Shown here piece by piece: positions 7,883-30,609 of a DNA stretch of 64,000 nt. Source of the stretch: Leptotrichia hofstadii (GTDB lineage: Bacteria > Fusobacteriota > Fusobacteriia > Fusobacteriales > Leptotrichiaceae); assembly GCF_007990525.1 (NCBI RefSeq), contig NZ_AP019823.1, forward strand, positions 1,488,001 to 1,552,000, written 5' to 3'. The position numbers and the translations under genes were made by a program. The notes under the pieces were generated by a model. It saw only the letters and a program-made list of their open reading frames with translations, was not told the DNA's origin and made no database searches. Position 1 is the first letter of the stretch. Every line of letters starts with the position of its first letter.

Positions 7883-9022
7883 CTACTTAATTACAGGATT
7901 TTTCAAAAATTCTCTCAAAGCTTTTGGATCTTTATTGTAATCCTTCACAAAACTTAATGAACTTTCCGAAGGAACTTTACAATAACTCTTGAAATATTTT
8001 GTAATAAAATCTTTGTCGTTAAGTTCAGTATATTTTTTTGATACTTTTTTAATATCTTTAGACATCTTTAATAAATATGATTCTATAAGTGCTTGAACAG
8101 GCTCTCCTTCAAATATATAATACTGAGGGATAACCATTCCCAACGAAGAACAAAAAGATTTGCTTCCAAAAAGTTTTACTTGTTCCTTATAGTGTTCTTC
8201 TGTCAATCCCTTTAAATTGAATTCCTTCAATGTCTTGAAAAAGTAGTCCCTATCCTCAACATTTACCTTATAAGTGCTATCTTGTGCAATAAATCCTAGA
8301 AACTTATCAATCTTTGTTGAACTTACAACTTCATCATCTTTATAGGTTCCTTCTTCTAAAAGTCGTCCTTTATTATCAAAAACTTCAAATTTACCATCTC
8401 TAATAAATGTATAATAGGAATAGACAATTCTATTTATTTCTTTGTATATTACTTCAACTTTCATTGTAGTTTCTTTATTTCCTTCTTTTGTGTGAATTTC
8501 CATTATACCTCTATTTCCTGAAGTTTGAGTATATGTGGATTTAATACTTCCATCTTGATTGTATACTTTAGCAAAAGTCAAAACATCATTTTTAAATATT
8601 TGTATATTCATTAGTTGTCCATCTTCATAATAATTTTTAGATTCACCATCTTTTACCCCATTTTTCCATTCACCAGCATCAATTAATTGTCCATTATCTG
8701 TATAAGCATAAAGTTTTCCATGATTTTTACCATTTTTTATAGTGGATAATCCAATAATTTTCCCATCTAAATAGAGAACTGCCACTCCACTAAATCCTTT
8801 TCCCGGTTGTCGCGGAATTCCATTTATTATTTTAAGCGTTGTTATATCACTCACATCAACATCTTTAAGCTCGTTATAATTACTCAACTTTGAAAGCCCT
8901 TTTATTGTTCCTAATTTTACTCCAAACGAAATTGTACTTACTAGCATAGCTAGTATTAATATTACTAATTTTCCTAGATAACTTTGTTTTTTTGAATTTA
9001 TTTCACAAAAATAGTATTTCAT
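7883..9022 (-). CDS. YwqK/MORN-repeat-type exported protein
   Basis: The 379-residue product has an N-terminal hydrophobic segment (about residues 18-36, LGKLVILILAMLVSTISFG) that acts as a signal or anchor. Short repeats of the MORN_2/YwqK kind follow, such as NGKNHGKLYAYTDNGQLID, GEWKNGVKDGESKNYYEDGQL and DGKFEVFDNKGRLLEEGTYKDD. The C-terminal 130 residues are unrelated to the repeats and contain two Cys. Database names often call this family the YwqK antitoxin, but nothing here shows a toxin partner. The start at MKYYF is chosen because GATAGGAGAGATTAAA precedes it; an ATG 21 bases upstream lacks this. A role outside the cytoplasmic membrane is likely. Confidence 0.75.
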   Translation of the reverse strand: MKYYFCEINSKKQSYLGKLVILILAMLVSTISFGVKLGTIKGLSKLSNYNELKDVDVSDITTLKIINGIPRQPGKGFSGVAVLYLDGKIIGLSTIKNGKNHGKLYAYTDNGQLIDAGEWKNGVKDGESKNYYEDGQLMNIQIFKNDVLTFAKVYNQDGSIKSTYTQTSGNRGIMEIHTKEGNKETTMKVEVIYKEINRIVYSYYTFIRDGKFEVFDNKGRLLEEGTYKDDEVVSSTKIDKFLGFIAQDSTYKVNVEDRDYFFKTLKEFNLKGLTEEHYKEQVKLFGSKSFCSSLGMVIPQYYIFEGEPVQALIESYLLKMSKDIKKVSKKYTELNDKDFITKYFKSYCKVPSESSLSFVKDYNKDPKALREFLKNPVIK

Positions 9023-26438: not shown

Positions 26439-27044
26439 ATGGATAAAATAATTTTAGGAATTTTAATGTTACACAGAATGACGGCATACGAGCTTCGAAA
26501 TGTAATCAGAAACAATTTTAAATCTATGTGCAGCGACAGCCTCGGGAGCATTCAGACAGCTCTCAAAAAATTGCTTATGTCGAAAATGGTTACTTTTGAA
26601 GAGCTTGTTGAAAAAGGAGTAAATAAAAAAAGATACTCAATAACTGATGTTGGACAAAAAACACTGATAGAATGGATAAGTGTTCCTATTGACATGTCAA
26701 AAACAAAAAATTTAGATATTGGAAAACTTCTTTTTATGGGATATATTTCAAAAAATGAACAAAAAAATCTGATTGATAAAATCATTCATTCTTTAGAGAA
26801 GGAATATACGTCGCTAAAAAAATTAAGGGAATCAATACATATTGAAAAAGAAAGGGAAACACTTAAAGACCATCTGCTTAAAGATACAGAATATCAAGAA
26901 AGAATTAAAAATTTAAATAAAGAAAACGATATATATGAAAACATTAAAGAAATCAGTAAATTTACATTGGCTACTTTAGATTATGGAATTGATATTACTG
27001 CTTTTAACATAGAATGGTTTAAAAAATTGAAGAAAAAAATATAA
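26439..27044 (+). CDS. PadR-family transcriptional regulator
   Basis: The N-terminal winged helix starts MDKIILGILMLHRMTAYELRNVIRNNF and continues with SLGSIQTALKKLLMSKMVTFEE and KKRYSITDVGQKTLIEW. This is the PadR pattern: I-L-G-h-L, then wing Y-x-h-T-x-x-G. The C-terminal 110 residues are helical, as in the Vir_act_alpha_C half of the family, and would make the dimer. Such repressors respond to drugs, phenolics or cell-wall stress. It sits 18 bases before a CPBP protease gene and behind its own 15-base palindrome, so it very likely represses itself and that gene. The ligand is unknown. The ATG follows ATAGGAGGTATATTATT. Confidence 0.93.
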   Translation: MDKIILGILMLHRMTAYELRNVIRNNFKSMCSDSLGSIQTALKKLLMSKMVTFEELVEKGVNKKRYSITDVGQKTLIEWISVPIDMSKTKNLDIGKLLFMGYISKNEQKNLIDKIIHSLEKEYTSLKKLRESIHIEKERETLKDHLLKDTEYQERIKNLNKENDIYENIKEISKFTLATLDYGIDITAFNIEWFKKLKKKI

Positions 27045-27062
27045 AAAGAAAGGTGAAACAAG

Positions 27063-27926
27063 ATGAATGATATAAGTAAGATTAAACGAAACATAATTAT
27101 CTTTACAATTGTTAGTACTGCTTGTGGCTGGATTGGATACCTTGTTGATAAATTGTCTGGTCAAGCCCATTATGAAAATGTTGGAACAATGGCAGGAGAA
27201 GAACCTTTTGGAATGCTTATCTGGTTACTATCTCCATTAATTTGTACAATTCTTCTTCGCATTTTTGGAGAAGATGGGTGGAAAAATTCAGCGGTTTCCA
27301 TTAATTTTAAAAATAATAAAAAGTTATATTTGATTAGCTTTTTAGTATACCCCACTGTCACTTTAATTGTTATATTACTGGGATTAATAACGAAAGGGAT
27401 TAAATTTCCCAATGTAAATATTGGAATTACAGCCTATATTGGGGTTTTATCTGTACAAATTGCCATTCAATTTATAAAAAATATATTTGAAGAGTCAGTT
27501 TGGAGAGCCTATCTTACAAACCAATTGTTAAAATTAAAATTATCCGATTTGAAATTGTACTTACTTATCGGATTTATCTGGTGGATTTGGCACTTGCCAT
27601 ATATTATGATATTTTTGTCCGAAAGTGAAATACAAAACACTTTACCTGTTGAGAGACTAACTTTTTTCCTTGCTGGAACAATAGTAGTGATATGCTGGAC
27701 GGTAATATATACAGAAATTTTTAGAGTTACTAAATCTATGTGGCCATTAGTTATTATGCATACTATGGAAGATGCAGTGATAAATCCGTTGCTTCTTTTA
27801 GGAATTGTATCTGTAGAAAAAAATCAGGCATTTCTTTTTTCACTTTCAGTAGGTATAATTTCGACAATTCTTTACTTGACAGTGGGATTAGTTATTAGAA
27901 ATTGGAGAAAAAGACAAGATAGATAA
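27063..27926 (+). CDS. CPBP-family intramembrane metalloprotease (with PadR)
   Basis: This polytopic membrane protein of 287 residues belongs to the CAAX protease/bacteriocin-processing (CPBP, Abi) family. It shows the three motifs in order: FEESVWRAYL (the EExxxR motif), WWIWHLPYIM (FxxxH-like, with His) and MHTMEDAVINP (HxxxN/D). Family members cleave within membranes or give immunity to peptides. It is co-transcribed with the PadR gene 18 bases upstream. It differs clearly from the two minus-strand paralogues downstream, whose motif is EEIIFRG or EEIVFRG. AGAAAGGTGAAACAAG precedes the start. Confidence 0.88.
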   Translation: MNDISKIKRNIIIFTIVSTACGWIGYLVDKLSGQAHYENVGTMAGEEPFGMLIWLLSPLICTILLRIFGEDGWKNSAVSINFKNNKKLYLISFLVYPTVTLIVILLGLITKGIKFPNVNIGITAYIGVLSVQIAIQFIKNIFEESVWRAYLTNQLLKLKLSDLKLYLLIGFIWWIWHLPYIMIFLSESEIQNTLPVERLTFFLAGTIVVICWTVIYTEIFRVTKSMWPLVIMHTMEDAVINPLLLLGIVSVEKNQAFLFSLSVGIISTILYLTVGLVIRNWRKRQDR

Positions 27927-27990
27927 AGCAAAAAAGAAATAAGCACTGATATAAAAGAAAAAACTAAAAACTAAAAACTCCCTATTTACC

Positions 27991-28863
27991 CTAAAACAAC
28001 TTGTAATTAAGTAGCAAGCCAGAAATTACAATAACAAGTATTACCACTAAATACAATCCATTAGTTTTCAGAAATCCAGCAACATTTTTTCTATCTTCAT
28101 CACTTAATTTAAATACTAAAAATATATCTTTATAGCTTTTCTTTATTAATCCAGATATAAAGAAAGATAGATAGAATATAAGCAAAAATACGGCGATTAT
28201 CACAAAAATAAGCAGGGAGGCTTCTCCTATTTCAGGTGTTTCAGAAATCATATTTATTAGAATATGCATTAAAATAGAATATTTAATAGAATATCTATAT
28301 GCAACATAAGACAGTACAATACCTATAAAGAATGCTGGAATAATCATATCTATATTATAATGAGATAATCCAAAAAGAATTGAGCTGGAAATTATTGCTG
28401 TTTTGATTCCATACTTTTTCAAATTATTCATTATAACTCCACGAAATATTATTTCCTCTAAAACAGGTGCAATACATATTGCATGAATTATATGTAAATA
28501 TAAAGGTCTCTCTATTACAAAATCCTGTTCATAAATATTGCTTACTATTGAAATTATAAAACCTAAAGCGATATTTATCCAAAAAATCGATGCAAAATAT
28601 ATATTGAAATCTCGTTTGCTTAGTGTTTCATTCACTTTAAAATATTTGTATTCCTTGTTATTTTTTATAAAGTAATAAAGAAACGGAATACAGAATAAAA
28701 ATTTGTCTATTCTAAAAAAATACATGTATCTTAACACATCATTGTTTGTTATCGCTATTCCTTTTTGAATAAACACTTTAAATACTAGATAACTGCAATA
28801 TATTATACATAAAATTAACGAAATATCTCTTTTTTCATTATTTTTTGCTAACATTTTTTGCAT
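27991..28863 (-). CDS. CPBP-family intramembrane metalloprotease, paralogue 1
   Basis: The 290-residue polytopic protein has the catalytic triad of motifs APVLEEIIFRGVIMNNL, ILFGLSHYNIDMIIPAFF and LMHILINMIS. It is closely related to the gene at 29330-30220: both share IVFRGVIMNNL-x-KYGI-type core and the YSIKYSIL segment. A tandem duplication separated by a small hydrophobic gene is the simplest history. CPBP proteins include the self-immunity proteins of several bacteriocin loci and prenyl-protein proteases. The start follows GGGAGATGGTTTTAA. It converges with the PadR-linked CPBP gene on the other strand. Confidence 0.88.
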   Translation of the reverse strand: MQKMLAKNNEKRDISLILCIIYCSYLVFKVFIQKGIAITNNDVLRYMYFFRIDKFLFCIPFLYYFIKNNKEYKYFKVNETLSKRDFNIYFASIFWINIALGFIISIVSNIYEQDFVIERPLYLHIIHAICIAPVLEEIIFRGVIMNNLKKYGIKTAIISSSILFGLSHYNIDMIIPAFFIGIVLSYVAYRYSIKYSILMHILINMISETPEIGEASLLIFVIIAVFLLIFYLSFFISGLIKKSYKDIFLVFKLSDEDRKNVAGFLKTNGLYLVVILVIVISGLLLNYKLF

Positions 28864-28991
28864 TTAAAACCATCTCCCATTTGATTCCATAATTTTTTTT
28901 ATTATTAACAGACATATTATACCTTTCTCCCATATTTTGTCAAATTAATTTTTTATTTAATTTTCAATCAGTTTAAAATTATAGCAAAATA

Positions 28992-29017
28992 GGAGCTTCT
29001 GCATATACAGAAACTCC
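28992..29017 (-). terminator. Hairpin after the 60-residue peptide gene
   Basis: On the minus strand GGAGTTTCTG, TATATG, CAGAAGCTCC pairs over 10 bp with one mismatch and leads into TATTTTGCTATAATTTT. It lies about 40 bases beyond the stop codon, an intrinsic terminator with a modest T run. Confidence 0.65.
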
Positions 29018-29055
29018 CTTTCTCATACAATATTAAATTTAAATCTATAAATTAC

Positions 29056-29238
29056 CTATTCAGTTTTATTAAAAAACTTAAACAAATACTTTCCACCTAA
29101 CCCAATAACAGCACCTGTTACTGCAGCTGTCAATAATCCTGGAATCCACCCGTACATATCAATAACTTTGCTTCCAAGTATGGAAGAAATTACAGAGATT
29201 ACTATAACTAATAAATTTTGATATTTTTTGCTACTCAT
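29056..29238 (-). CDS. Small hydrophobic two-helix peptide between CPBP proteases
   Basis: The 60-residue product starts MSSKKYQNLLVIVISVISS. It has two hydrophobic segments, about residues 9-24 and 31-53, the second Gly/Ala-rich (GWIPGLLTAAVTGAVIGLGG). The C-terminus is basic (KYLFKFFNKTE). GTTGGTGGAGGCAGAACT upstream of the ATG is a very good ribosome site, so it is a real gene. It sits alone between two paralogous CPBP proteases of the same strand, the arrangement in which bacteriocin-like peptides and their immunity or processing proteins are found. It could equally be a holin-like or stress-membrane peptide. No family was recognised. Confidence 0.72.
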   Translation of the reverse strand: MSSKKYQNLLVIVISVISSILGSKVIDMYGWIPGLLTAAVTGAVIGLGGKYLFKFFNKTE

Positions 29239-29329
29239 AGTTCTGCCTCCACCAACGATATTTTAATTTATTTTATCTTTCTGCATATATATTACTCCAA
29301 TTTAAATATTTTGTCAAATTACTTATTAA

Positions 29330-30220
29330 TTAAAATATTTTATAATTAAAGAAAAAATTACAAACCACAATCGCAAATATTATCAGCAAATACAGAAAAT
29401 CATTTTTCACAAATTCAACTAATTTCTTCCTGTCTTCAACATTTAATTTTAAAATAAAAAATATCTCCTTGTATCTTCCTTTTGCCAGTCCAATTATAAA
29501 AAATATTAATAAAAAGATAATTAAAAACAGCAAAAACAAACCAAATACTGCTATGAACATTCCAATTTTTGAAAGTATTATAACCTGTAATATTTGTGTT
29601 ATCGTGTTTAACAGAAAATGTATTAAAATAGAATATTTTATCGAATATTTGCATGCAACATAAGAAAAGATGATTCCCGTCAAAAATGCTGGAATAATCA
29701 TCTCTACATTATAATGGGATAGTCCAAAAAGAAGGGAATTAATAATTATTGCTGCTCTAATCCCATATTTTCTCAAATTATTCATTATAACTCCACGAAA
29801 TACAATTTCTTCCAATATCGGTGCTACAAATACTGTCATTATTACATCTATATACAAAGGCTCATTTATTAAAGACGTTCGCCCTTTAAATTTAAACATT
29901 GATACAATCAATAAATTGGAAAGATTACCTACATAAAAAGCTAGTGCAAAATATGTATTAAAGTCTTTTATATTAAATTTTTCGTTCGTTTTAAAATATT
30001 CATATTTTTTATAAGTTTTTACAAAATAATAAATTATTGGAAAACTAAGTATCCAACTATATATTCTAAACATGTATACATATCTAAATATCTTACTGTC
30101 TGTAATTACTGTTTTATTATTTACAAAAATCATAAATGTTAGATGAAGTATATAAATTATAAACAAAAATAGAGAAATATCCTTTTTCATGCTATGCTTC
30201 AAATTTATTATTTTTTTCAT
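29330..30220 (-). CDS. CPBP-family intramembrane metalloprotease, paralogue 2
   Basis: The protein has 296 residues with about eight membrane helices. The motifs are APILEEIVFRGVIMNNL (EExxFRG), LLFGLSHYNVEMIIPAF and LIHFLLNTITQI. The paralogue at 27991-28863 aligns with it from the first helix (KKDISLFLFIIYILHL versus KRDISLILCIIYCSYL) to the end. The start at MKKIINLKH follows GGAGGCAAAGGTAA; a second Met (MKKDIS) ten codons later aligns better with the paralogue's N-terminus. It lies upstream of the small hydrophobic gene on the same strand. Confidence 0.88.
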   Translation of the reverse strand: MKKIINLKHSMKKDISLFLFIIYILHLTFMIFVNNKTVITDSKIFRYVYMFRIYSWILSFPIIYYFVKTYKKYEYFKTNEKFNIKDFNTYFALAFYVGNLSNLLIVSMFKFKGRTSLINEPLYIDVIMTVFVAPILEEIVFRGVIMNNLRKYGIRAAIIINSLLFGLSHYNVEMIIPAFLTGIIFSYVACKYSIKYSILIHFLLNTITQILQVIILSKIGMFIAVFGLFLLFLIIFLLIFFIIGLAKGRYKEIFFILKLNVEDRKKLVEFVKNDFLYLLIIFAIVVCNFFFNYKIF

Positions 30221-30257
30221 TTACCTTTGCCTCCAACTATTTTTTATTGTTAATTTA

Positions 30258-30290
30258 AAAAAATACCATCCTATTTCTAAGACAGTATTT
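30258..30290 (-). terminator. Terminator of the rplU-prp-rpmA operon
   Basis: On the minus strand AAATACTGTC, ten bases, GATGGTATTT forms a 10-bp stem (two G-T pairs), followed by a T run, about 25 bases beyond rpmA. Confidence 0.8.
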
Positions 30291-30315
30291 CAAAAATATA
30301 TTATACAATTTATTA

Positions 30316-30609
30316 CTATGCTTCTGCTCTTTCAGGATAAATACTTACTCTTTTTTTACCATTTCCAAATTTTTCAAATTTTACATATCCATCAGTTAAT
30401 GCGAATAAAGTGTAATCTTTTCCTAATTTAGCGTTAGTTCCTGCGTGAAATTTACTTCCTCTTTGTCTTACAATAATGTTTCCAGCTTTTACAGCTTCTC
30501 CATCATATTTTTTTACTCCTAAATATTTAGGGTTAGAATCTCTACCATTTCTAGTTGATCCTTGCCCTTTTTTTGAGGCAAATAACTGTAAGTTTAATTT
30601 TAATAACAT
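30316..30609 (-). CDS. rpmA: 50S ribosomal protein L27 with cleavable N-terminal extension
   Basis: L27 reaches into the peptidyl-transferase centre of the 50S subunit. The sequence [20 protein letters not shown] has the N-terminal extension known from Staphylococcus and relatives, removed between Phe and Ala by the protease Prp. Here the expected cut is after F10, leaving [21 protein letters not shown]. Prp is encoded by the very next gene upstream. The length of 97 is normal. It is the last gene of the rplU-prp-rpmA operon; GAGGAGGTTGGAAAAT lies before the ATG. Confidence 0.98.

Follow-up and report, generated by a model that had tools for sequence, protein, structure and literature searches.

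A sixty-residue membrane peptide and two CPBP proteins of Leptotrichia hofstadii as probable orphan immunity genes of displaced double-glycine bacteriocin operons

A stretch of 64,000 nucleotides from the genome of Leptotrichia hofstadii (RefSeq assembly GCF_007990525.1, contig NZ_AP019823.1, positions 1,488,001–1,552,000; hereafter the window, numbered from its first letter) carries three neighbouring genes on the minus strand: CPBP1 (29330–30220; 296 residues), the gene of a 60-residue peptide (29056–29238) and CPBP2 (27991–28863; 290 residues). Both CPBP proteins are homologues of Rce1-like intramembrane proteases (PF02517, 71.2 and 68.6 bits; cut-off, 22.4 bits) that are 44% identical over 296 columns and keep the EExxxR, FxxxH and HxxxN motifs, which we take to be those of the CPBP family. 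The peptide is cationic (+4) and predicted to form two membrane helices. A first-pass annotation made from the sequence alone had described two CPBP paralogues flanking a small peptide on one strand, with a strong ribosome site, and the open reading frames were found in exactly this arrangement, with GGAGG seven bases 5' of the ATG of the peptide; the label ‘Gly/Ala-rich’ holds only modestly (a manual count gives 7 Gly and 3 Ala among the 60 residues). Comparison with related genomes suggests that the block probably consists of orphan immunity genes, left by displaced operons for double-glycine (GG) peptides of the class II microcin or class II bacteriocin type.

The genes look separately transcribed, because the peptide gene is followed by a terminator-like stem-loop (28991–29018, minus strand; 12 pairs, 5 G-C, then a T-rich tail) and CPBP2 is preceded by a promoter block (28889–28983, minus strand) that includes a 12/12 match to the sigma-70-type consensus, TTGACA-16-TATAAT, at 28943–28916. 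The peptide gene has a promoter-like site of its own (TTGACA-17-TAATAT, 29289–29317, minus strand; 10/12 consensus), which alone means little given that the scan returned 43 promoter-like sites against 31.7 (standard deviation, 5.7) in shuffles. With a terminator-like stem and separate promoter-like sites between the genes, a single CPBP1-peptide-CPBP2 operon was rejected.

The genome containing the window (2.60 Mb; G000) and its relatives (G001 onward; fetched loci are labelled L0xx) were compared in sets of 60 relatives including this genome, 13 genomes of the genus and 96 genomes of the order. The bacteriocin link proposed in the first-pass annotation was borne out, in that in relatives these gene families adjoin GG peptides and C39 ATP-binding cassette (ABC) exporters. 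Six loci (G002, G005, G010, G012, G014 and G029) combine a GG-leader candidate, identified by leader and context, with a C39 exporter or an exporter remnant, and among the genus genomes only G010 has an operon with all parts intact. There, the region of trmD (a gene name that, like trpS and L27 below, we presume from the sequence) holds CPBP1, a third CPBP gene and a PadR gene on the opposite strand, a partial second trmD and a 116-residue GG gene with the leader MKIVELNEMELMTIDGG and a Gly/Ala-rich second half. These are followed by a 59-residue homologue of the window peptide (59% identity), a 718-residue C39 exporter (TIGR01193, 660.7 bits, cut-off 523.85 bits; C39 domain PF03412, 131.8 bits), an HlyD-type protein (HlyD_3) and, last, the gene that in the window comes after trmD. 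With its GG peptide, adjacent membrane protein, C39 ABC exporter and HlyD-type protein, this locus (L035, 9198–13159) has the composition of a microcin-type operon. The GG peptides of G005 and G029 resemble PF10439 at 20.4 and 13.9 bits, below its cut-off of 27.1 bits, and the G010 peptide was not listed. The partial second trmD-like gene (L035, ~8323–8907) lies beside the G010 operon, as would result from an insertion accompanied by duplication.

A single membrane-protein gene lies between the GG gene and the exporter sequence in five of the six GG loci, and this slot is filled by the peptide family in G010 and by a CPBP protein in G005, G012, G002 and G029. Since two unrelated families share one slot, both are best explained as immunity proteins matched to different peptides, and the CPBP proteins are more likely to be alternative immunity genes than partners of the peptide. 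The peptide itself also seems more likely to be an immunity protein than a bacteriocin, the role first suspected: its G010 homologue has no leader and begins 25 bp 3' of a true GG-leader gene, in the position that CPBP proteins occupy elsewhere. Its 60 residues, two predicted helices and homologue adjoining the G010 GG gene are consistent with a small membrane immunity-type protein, and an AlphaFold2 model of moderate confidence (mean predicted local distance difference test, 72.4; predicted template modelling score, 0.35) places the helices at residues 3–29 and 31–58.

That same position in G010 bears on the proposal that the peptide is a leaderless, cationic, membrane-active bacteriocin to which the CPBP proteins confer immunity. 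Its size, net charge and hydrophobic two-helix build would fit, as leaderless bacteriocins of such size, charge and build are known, and CPBP genes stand on both sides of it in the window. However, besides following a GG-leader peptide in G010, the peptide is kept in four of the ten genomes that bear it (G003, G006, G011 and G022) with no CPBP relative at E ≤ 1e-10, making this proposal unlikely. The absence of CPBP relatives from these four genomes also speaks against a fixed peptide-CPBP pairing, and is in part the finding that the first-pass annotation had named as refuting its own proposal.

The ten genomes with a peptide homologue (of 60 relatives, L. hofstadii included; the same ten of the 96 genomes of the order) comprise nine of the 13 genus genomes and one genome of a second genus. 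Identity to the window peptide is 90–93% in three copies (G011, G007 and G012, the last with one stop) and 54–59% in six. Ratios of nonsynonymous to synonymous substitution rates (dN/dS; Nei-Gojobori), which on 59–60 codons are rough, were 0.18 against G011 and 0.22 against G007, the two closest intact homologues, and 0.42–0.49 between the window peptide and the 54–59% group, with values for G007 of up to 0.64. The 60-residue peptide is therefore a real, conserved gene. It had no match over cut-off in Pfam and none in NCBIfam or PHROG.

The two CPBP genes gave comparable values, CPBP1 with dN/dS of 0.25–0.36 in comparisons with six further copies (one of them a C-terminal part) and CPBP2 with 0.35 when compared with the portion of the G019 copy that is still open, so that the nearest peptide pairs, CPBP1 and CPBP2 all fall below 0.4. 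In two comparisons trmD gave 0.04, the third (G012) being saturated. All three genes of the block are thus real genes under purifying selection, with a constraint weaker than that of the core. CPBP1 occurs in seven of the 13 genus genomes, broken in G007, and groups in the tree with the CPBP1 of five other species, while CPBP2 groups with its nearest known copy, that of G019 (59–60% identity; support 93/96, not starred and with a long-branch warning). As the tree places each with copies from other species, a recent tandem duplication within the L. hofstadii genome was rejected. Against plasmids, CPBP1 gave four distant matches.

Of 17 CPBP rows, only one, a partial row, lacks intact catalytic motifs, as would be expected if the CPBP proteins processed a peptide or helped to export it in the manner of SilX, a CAAX protease of Streptococcus anginosus that bacteriocin production requires but immunity does not (PMC9298176). 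Where the operon is complete, though, the C39 exporter would already remove the leader, the G010 slot gene is not a CPBP, and the L. hofstadii genome keeps its CPBP genes with neither GG peptide nor C39 exporter. A maturation role is accordingly improbable.

The lack of a visible exporter or leader, which the first-pass annotation counted against its own case, was confirmed for the window, where tblastn queries with four GG peptides, the C39 exporter and the HlyD-type adaptor left no trace (E ≤ 0.1). For the adaptor, the G010 protein was the query and the search covered the window only, not the rest of the genome. The transporter check that had been recommended gave no C39 domain anywhere in the L. 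hofstadii genome, compared to six of the 13 genus genomes (PF03412, E ≤ 0.001). Queried with the C39-ABC protein, 60/60 genomes give matches to ordinary ABC transporters, and the best-matching stretch in L. hofstadii begins at residue 156, after the peptidase domain. The TIGR01847 profile (15 positions) yielded matches below cut-off only, with none of the 13 genomes exceeding it, and missed known GG genes, so that its silence is uninformative. Of the peptide-and-immunity cluster originally envisaged, the immunity-like genes stand, and the bacteriocin gene and exporter are missing. What is left is several immunity-like genes in tandem with no effector or exporter and with similarity to slot genes elsewhere, the composition of an orphan immunity array.

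The sequence before CPBP2 points to what may have been lost. The region before each gene was aligned to the GG-gene promoters, with 500 shuffles each as the null, and the 150 bases before CPBP2 scored 117–126 against G010 and G005 and 110–113 against G012 and G002, compared to shuffle maxima of 69–77; by blastn, the block is 82% identical to L035 9168–9073. On these alignments the CPBP2 promoter and the GG-gene promoter of relatives are homologous, and the simplest account would be that a bacteriocin gene was lost from between this promoter and CPBP2. The peptide-gene promoter has a weak likeness to the GG promoters, its scores being reached by 1 to 10 of 500 shuffles.

Between the promoter boxes, G010 and G012 carry uninterrupted tracts of 11 and 14 G (L035 9112–9140 and L034 7871–7902) in spacers of 17 and 20 bases, and these are the only two sites in the 13 genus genomes where TTGACA and TATAAT flank a run of 8 or more G. 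The GG promoter of G005 has GGGGAGGG in a spacer of 14 behind TTGATA, the CPBP2 promoter of the window has the broken tract GGGAGAAAGG in a spacer of 16, and G002 lacks both boxes in this form. This variation in spacer length, a between-species comparison with one genome per species, hints at a bacteriocin whose expression could be switched (phase-variable) by slippage; no precedent for phase-variable bacteriocin promoters was found in the literature searched. A wider picture, of a horizontally shuffled microcin-type system with a two-family slot, a poly-G-switched bacteriocin, a growing stack of shields and a CPBP2 locked on by the broken G tract of its captured promoter copy, is conceivable but tentative.

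Several relatives show the operon in states of decay. The G012 locus has exporter and adaptor with a frameshifted GG gene, a stop in the peptide gene and transposase-like genes (a label that we presume), and in G002 the GG gene is broken and the CPBP gene intact. At another locus (locus B), in G002, G003, G005, G006 and G022, an intact 59-residue gene lies between the tail of a GG gene and the start of an exporter, the flanks corresponding to the last 20 codons of a G010-type GG gene and to exporter codons 1 (8 in G022) to ~101, so that six of six G010-type peptide copies lie between GG-gene and C39 sequence. The locus-B genes are very close to that of G010 (synonymous divergence, dS, 0.026–0.079); the cassette therefore moved recently, and its survival alone is no proof of selection. 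In G012 and G011, a block of 352 columns that includes the peptide is 95% identical, despite the divergence of trmD, for which synonymous sites are saturated between the window and G012 and dS is 0.55 between the window and G011. This suggests that the peptide unit was transferred horizontally. The CPBP2 tail with its downstream bases (window 27964–28053) also recurs in G012 as a separate stub (L034 8067–8156; 84% over 90 bp), which suggests recombination at conserved CPBP 3' ends.

These distributions also bear on whether the peptide is an ordinary small membrane protein with some other function, its proximity to bacteriocin genes being coincidental. In favour of this, the G010 copy weakly resembles TIGR04086 (22.2 bits; cut-off, 30 bits) and DUF3792 (19.2 bits; cut-off, 31.3 bits), in both cases under the cut-off, and the peptide occurs without CPBP genes in four genomes. 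Its patchy presence in the order, its horizontal mobility and the position of all six G010-type copies argue the other way, and a chance association is very unlikely. A phage or plasmid gene was considered and rejected for lack of support: the window peptide has no PHROGs family, the G010 copy has one weak PHROGs match of unknown function and no match to plasmids (only this copy was queried), and a viral-contig scan gave 266 pattern matches, none confirmed. The scan of wider genome contigs returned one locus, in Leptotrichia hongkongensis JMUB5056.

If the block is indeed what remains of displaced operons, in the complete form, as in G010, a single promoter would be followed by the genes for a GG-leader peptide, a small immunity protein of the membrane, a C39 ABC exporter and an HlyD-type adaptor, and the immunity slot could be occupied by a CPBP protein or by a member of the two-helix peptide family. 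A producing relative would export the GG peptide through the C39 ABC/HlyD pair, the exporter cleaving the leader during export, and would strike its neighbours at the inner membrane, while the producer's own slot protein would block the exported peptide in its membrane. Strains that lost or replaced the weapon would keep the old slot genes and so be shielded from kin still making the peptide. In the lineage of the window, the bacteriocin and exporter genes would have been lost and CPBP1, the peptide and CPBP2 kept, CPBP2 now sitting directly behind a former bacteriocin promoter, and the retained proteins probably reside in the inner membrane and give protection from the matching peptides of neighbouring Leptotrichia. 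That each protein acts in immunity, in what order the losses occurred and that protection operates today are inferences from sequence comparison.

A number of observations weigh against this account. CPBP1 occurs with no GG gene or exporter in G001 and G008 (loci L042 and L043), so that its immunity role is proposed by paralogy only, and its promoter does not resemble the GG promoters. CPBP2 is 40–42% identical to the slot CPBP proteins of G005, G012 and G002, on a separate branch of the tree, and is thus not their ortholog; the CPBP2-like copy of G019 is broken, with no GG gene or C39 domain around it. Exporters are partial in G005 (a 404-residue piece), G002 (~20 residues) and G029 (a 43-residue start near the contig end), and the G014 slot holds neither a CPBP nor a peptide homologue; in that genome the exporter and HlyD gene have three GG candidates on either side, and the CPBP lies on another contig. 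At locus B the copies have diverged too recently for selection to be demonstrated, their dN/dS ranging from 0 to 0.87 or being undefined. The leader DNA pattern, absent from the L. hofstadii genome and found in 5/60 relatives, misses the GG gene of G029, so that its silence in L. hofstadii is weak.

As a locus in its own right, the G014 region (L082 197–6786), from another genus of the family, has its six GG-leader candidates arranged round a C39 ABC exporter and HlyD gene as in a multi-peptide bacteriocin-type locus. Near the C39 exporters of G031, G025 and G034 a regular-expression search gave no GG candidate; CPBP relatives are found ~1.9 kb away from the exporter in G031 and ~8.2 kb away in G025, with none in the G034 stretch fetched.

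On the other side of CPBP2, a PadR-type regulator gene and then the third CPBP gene (PF02517, 39.5 bits) occupy 26439–27926 on the plus strand. The first-pass annotation had counted them with the cluster, from which they were excluded as they lie on the opposite strand and occur in G001, which has no peptide copy. The pair is also found near CPBP1 in G001 and G010, at 90–93% DNA identity. The right neighbour of CPBP1 in the window (30220–30609) is an L27-like ribosomal gene; in G011 an L27-like gene lies a few kb off, and on that side of CPBP1 G001, G005, G007, G008, G010 and G012 have a trpS-like gene, marking a rearrangement breakpoint.

Among known systems, the G010 locus shares with the class II microcin operon of microcin V (CvaC, Cvi, CvaB, CvaA and TolC) a GG peptide, an adjacent small membrane protein, a C39 ABC exporter and an HlyD-type adaptor. 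These are the components that a review gives for class II microcins, whose immunity proteins it describes as having 51–216 residues and predicted transmembrane helices and as encoded next to the pre-peptide gene (PMC10233263). In contrast to the microcin V operon, the window keeps only immunity-like genes, the host is Leptotrichia and the slot may hold a CPBP. The streptococcal blp-type class II loci likewise have a CPBP gene beside GG peptides, as in the relatives; CPBP proteins beside class II bacteriocins have been discussed as possible self-immunity (PMC8692603), a Bacteroides cluster with a CAAX protein and a C39 exporter has been reported (PMC4573289), and bacteriocin and immunity genes are freely mixed in the blp locus (PMC4860687). 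Unlike these loci, the window has no bacteriocin left, and the loci read showed no obvious gene for a regulator or pheromone, although no search aimed at one was made. The 60-residue peptide resembles, by description only, the small transmembrane immunity proteins of two-peptide bacteriocins (CbnZ, LagC and LciM), which have one to four transmembrane domains (PMC6957408), whereas the G010 slot neighbour is a single GG peptide. The window is also like the orphan immunity arrays of the Vibrio cholerae type VI secretion system (T6SS), in which immunity genes are retained after effector replacement and are proposed to protect against kin (PMC5361080), with the differences that it would concern secreted peptides and not T6SS effectors, that three genes from two unrelated families are involved and that the stepwise displacement is one that the comparison suggests.

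The block is thus most likely an immunity cluster that lacks its bacteriocin; orphan immunity genes as such are known, and their setting and arrangement here are new. No such locus was found described in the literature searched on Leptotrichia bacteriocins or microcins and on fusobacterial double-glycine bacteriocins, of which the coverage was partial; clusters of the linocin M18 type have been named for two Fusobacterium species (PMC4573289). A 2022 review lists 15 microcin examples, all from Enterobacteriaceae, and describes double-glycine signals with such exporters as bioinformatically widespread, with a related class in Bacteroides (PMC10233263). If the reading of the block as orphan immunity genes is true, microcin-like warfare would extend to Leptotrichia, and the stacking of immunity genes known from the T6SS would occur in a peptide-bacteriocin setting. 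It would also propose a function for a protein family with no database match over cut-off, for which the G010 GG peptide and the 59/60-residue family form a testable pair, and would point to a bacteriocin promoter that may be switchable.

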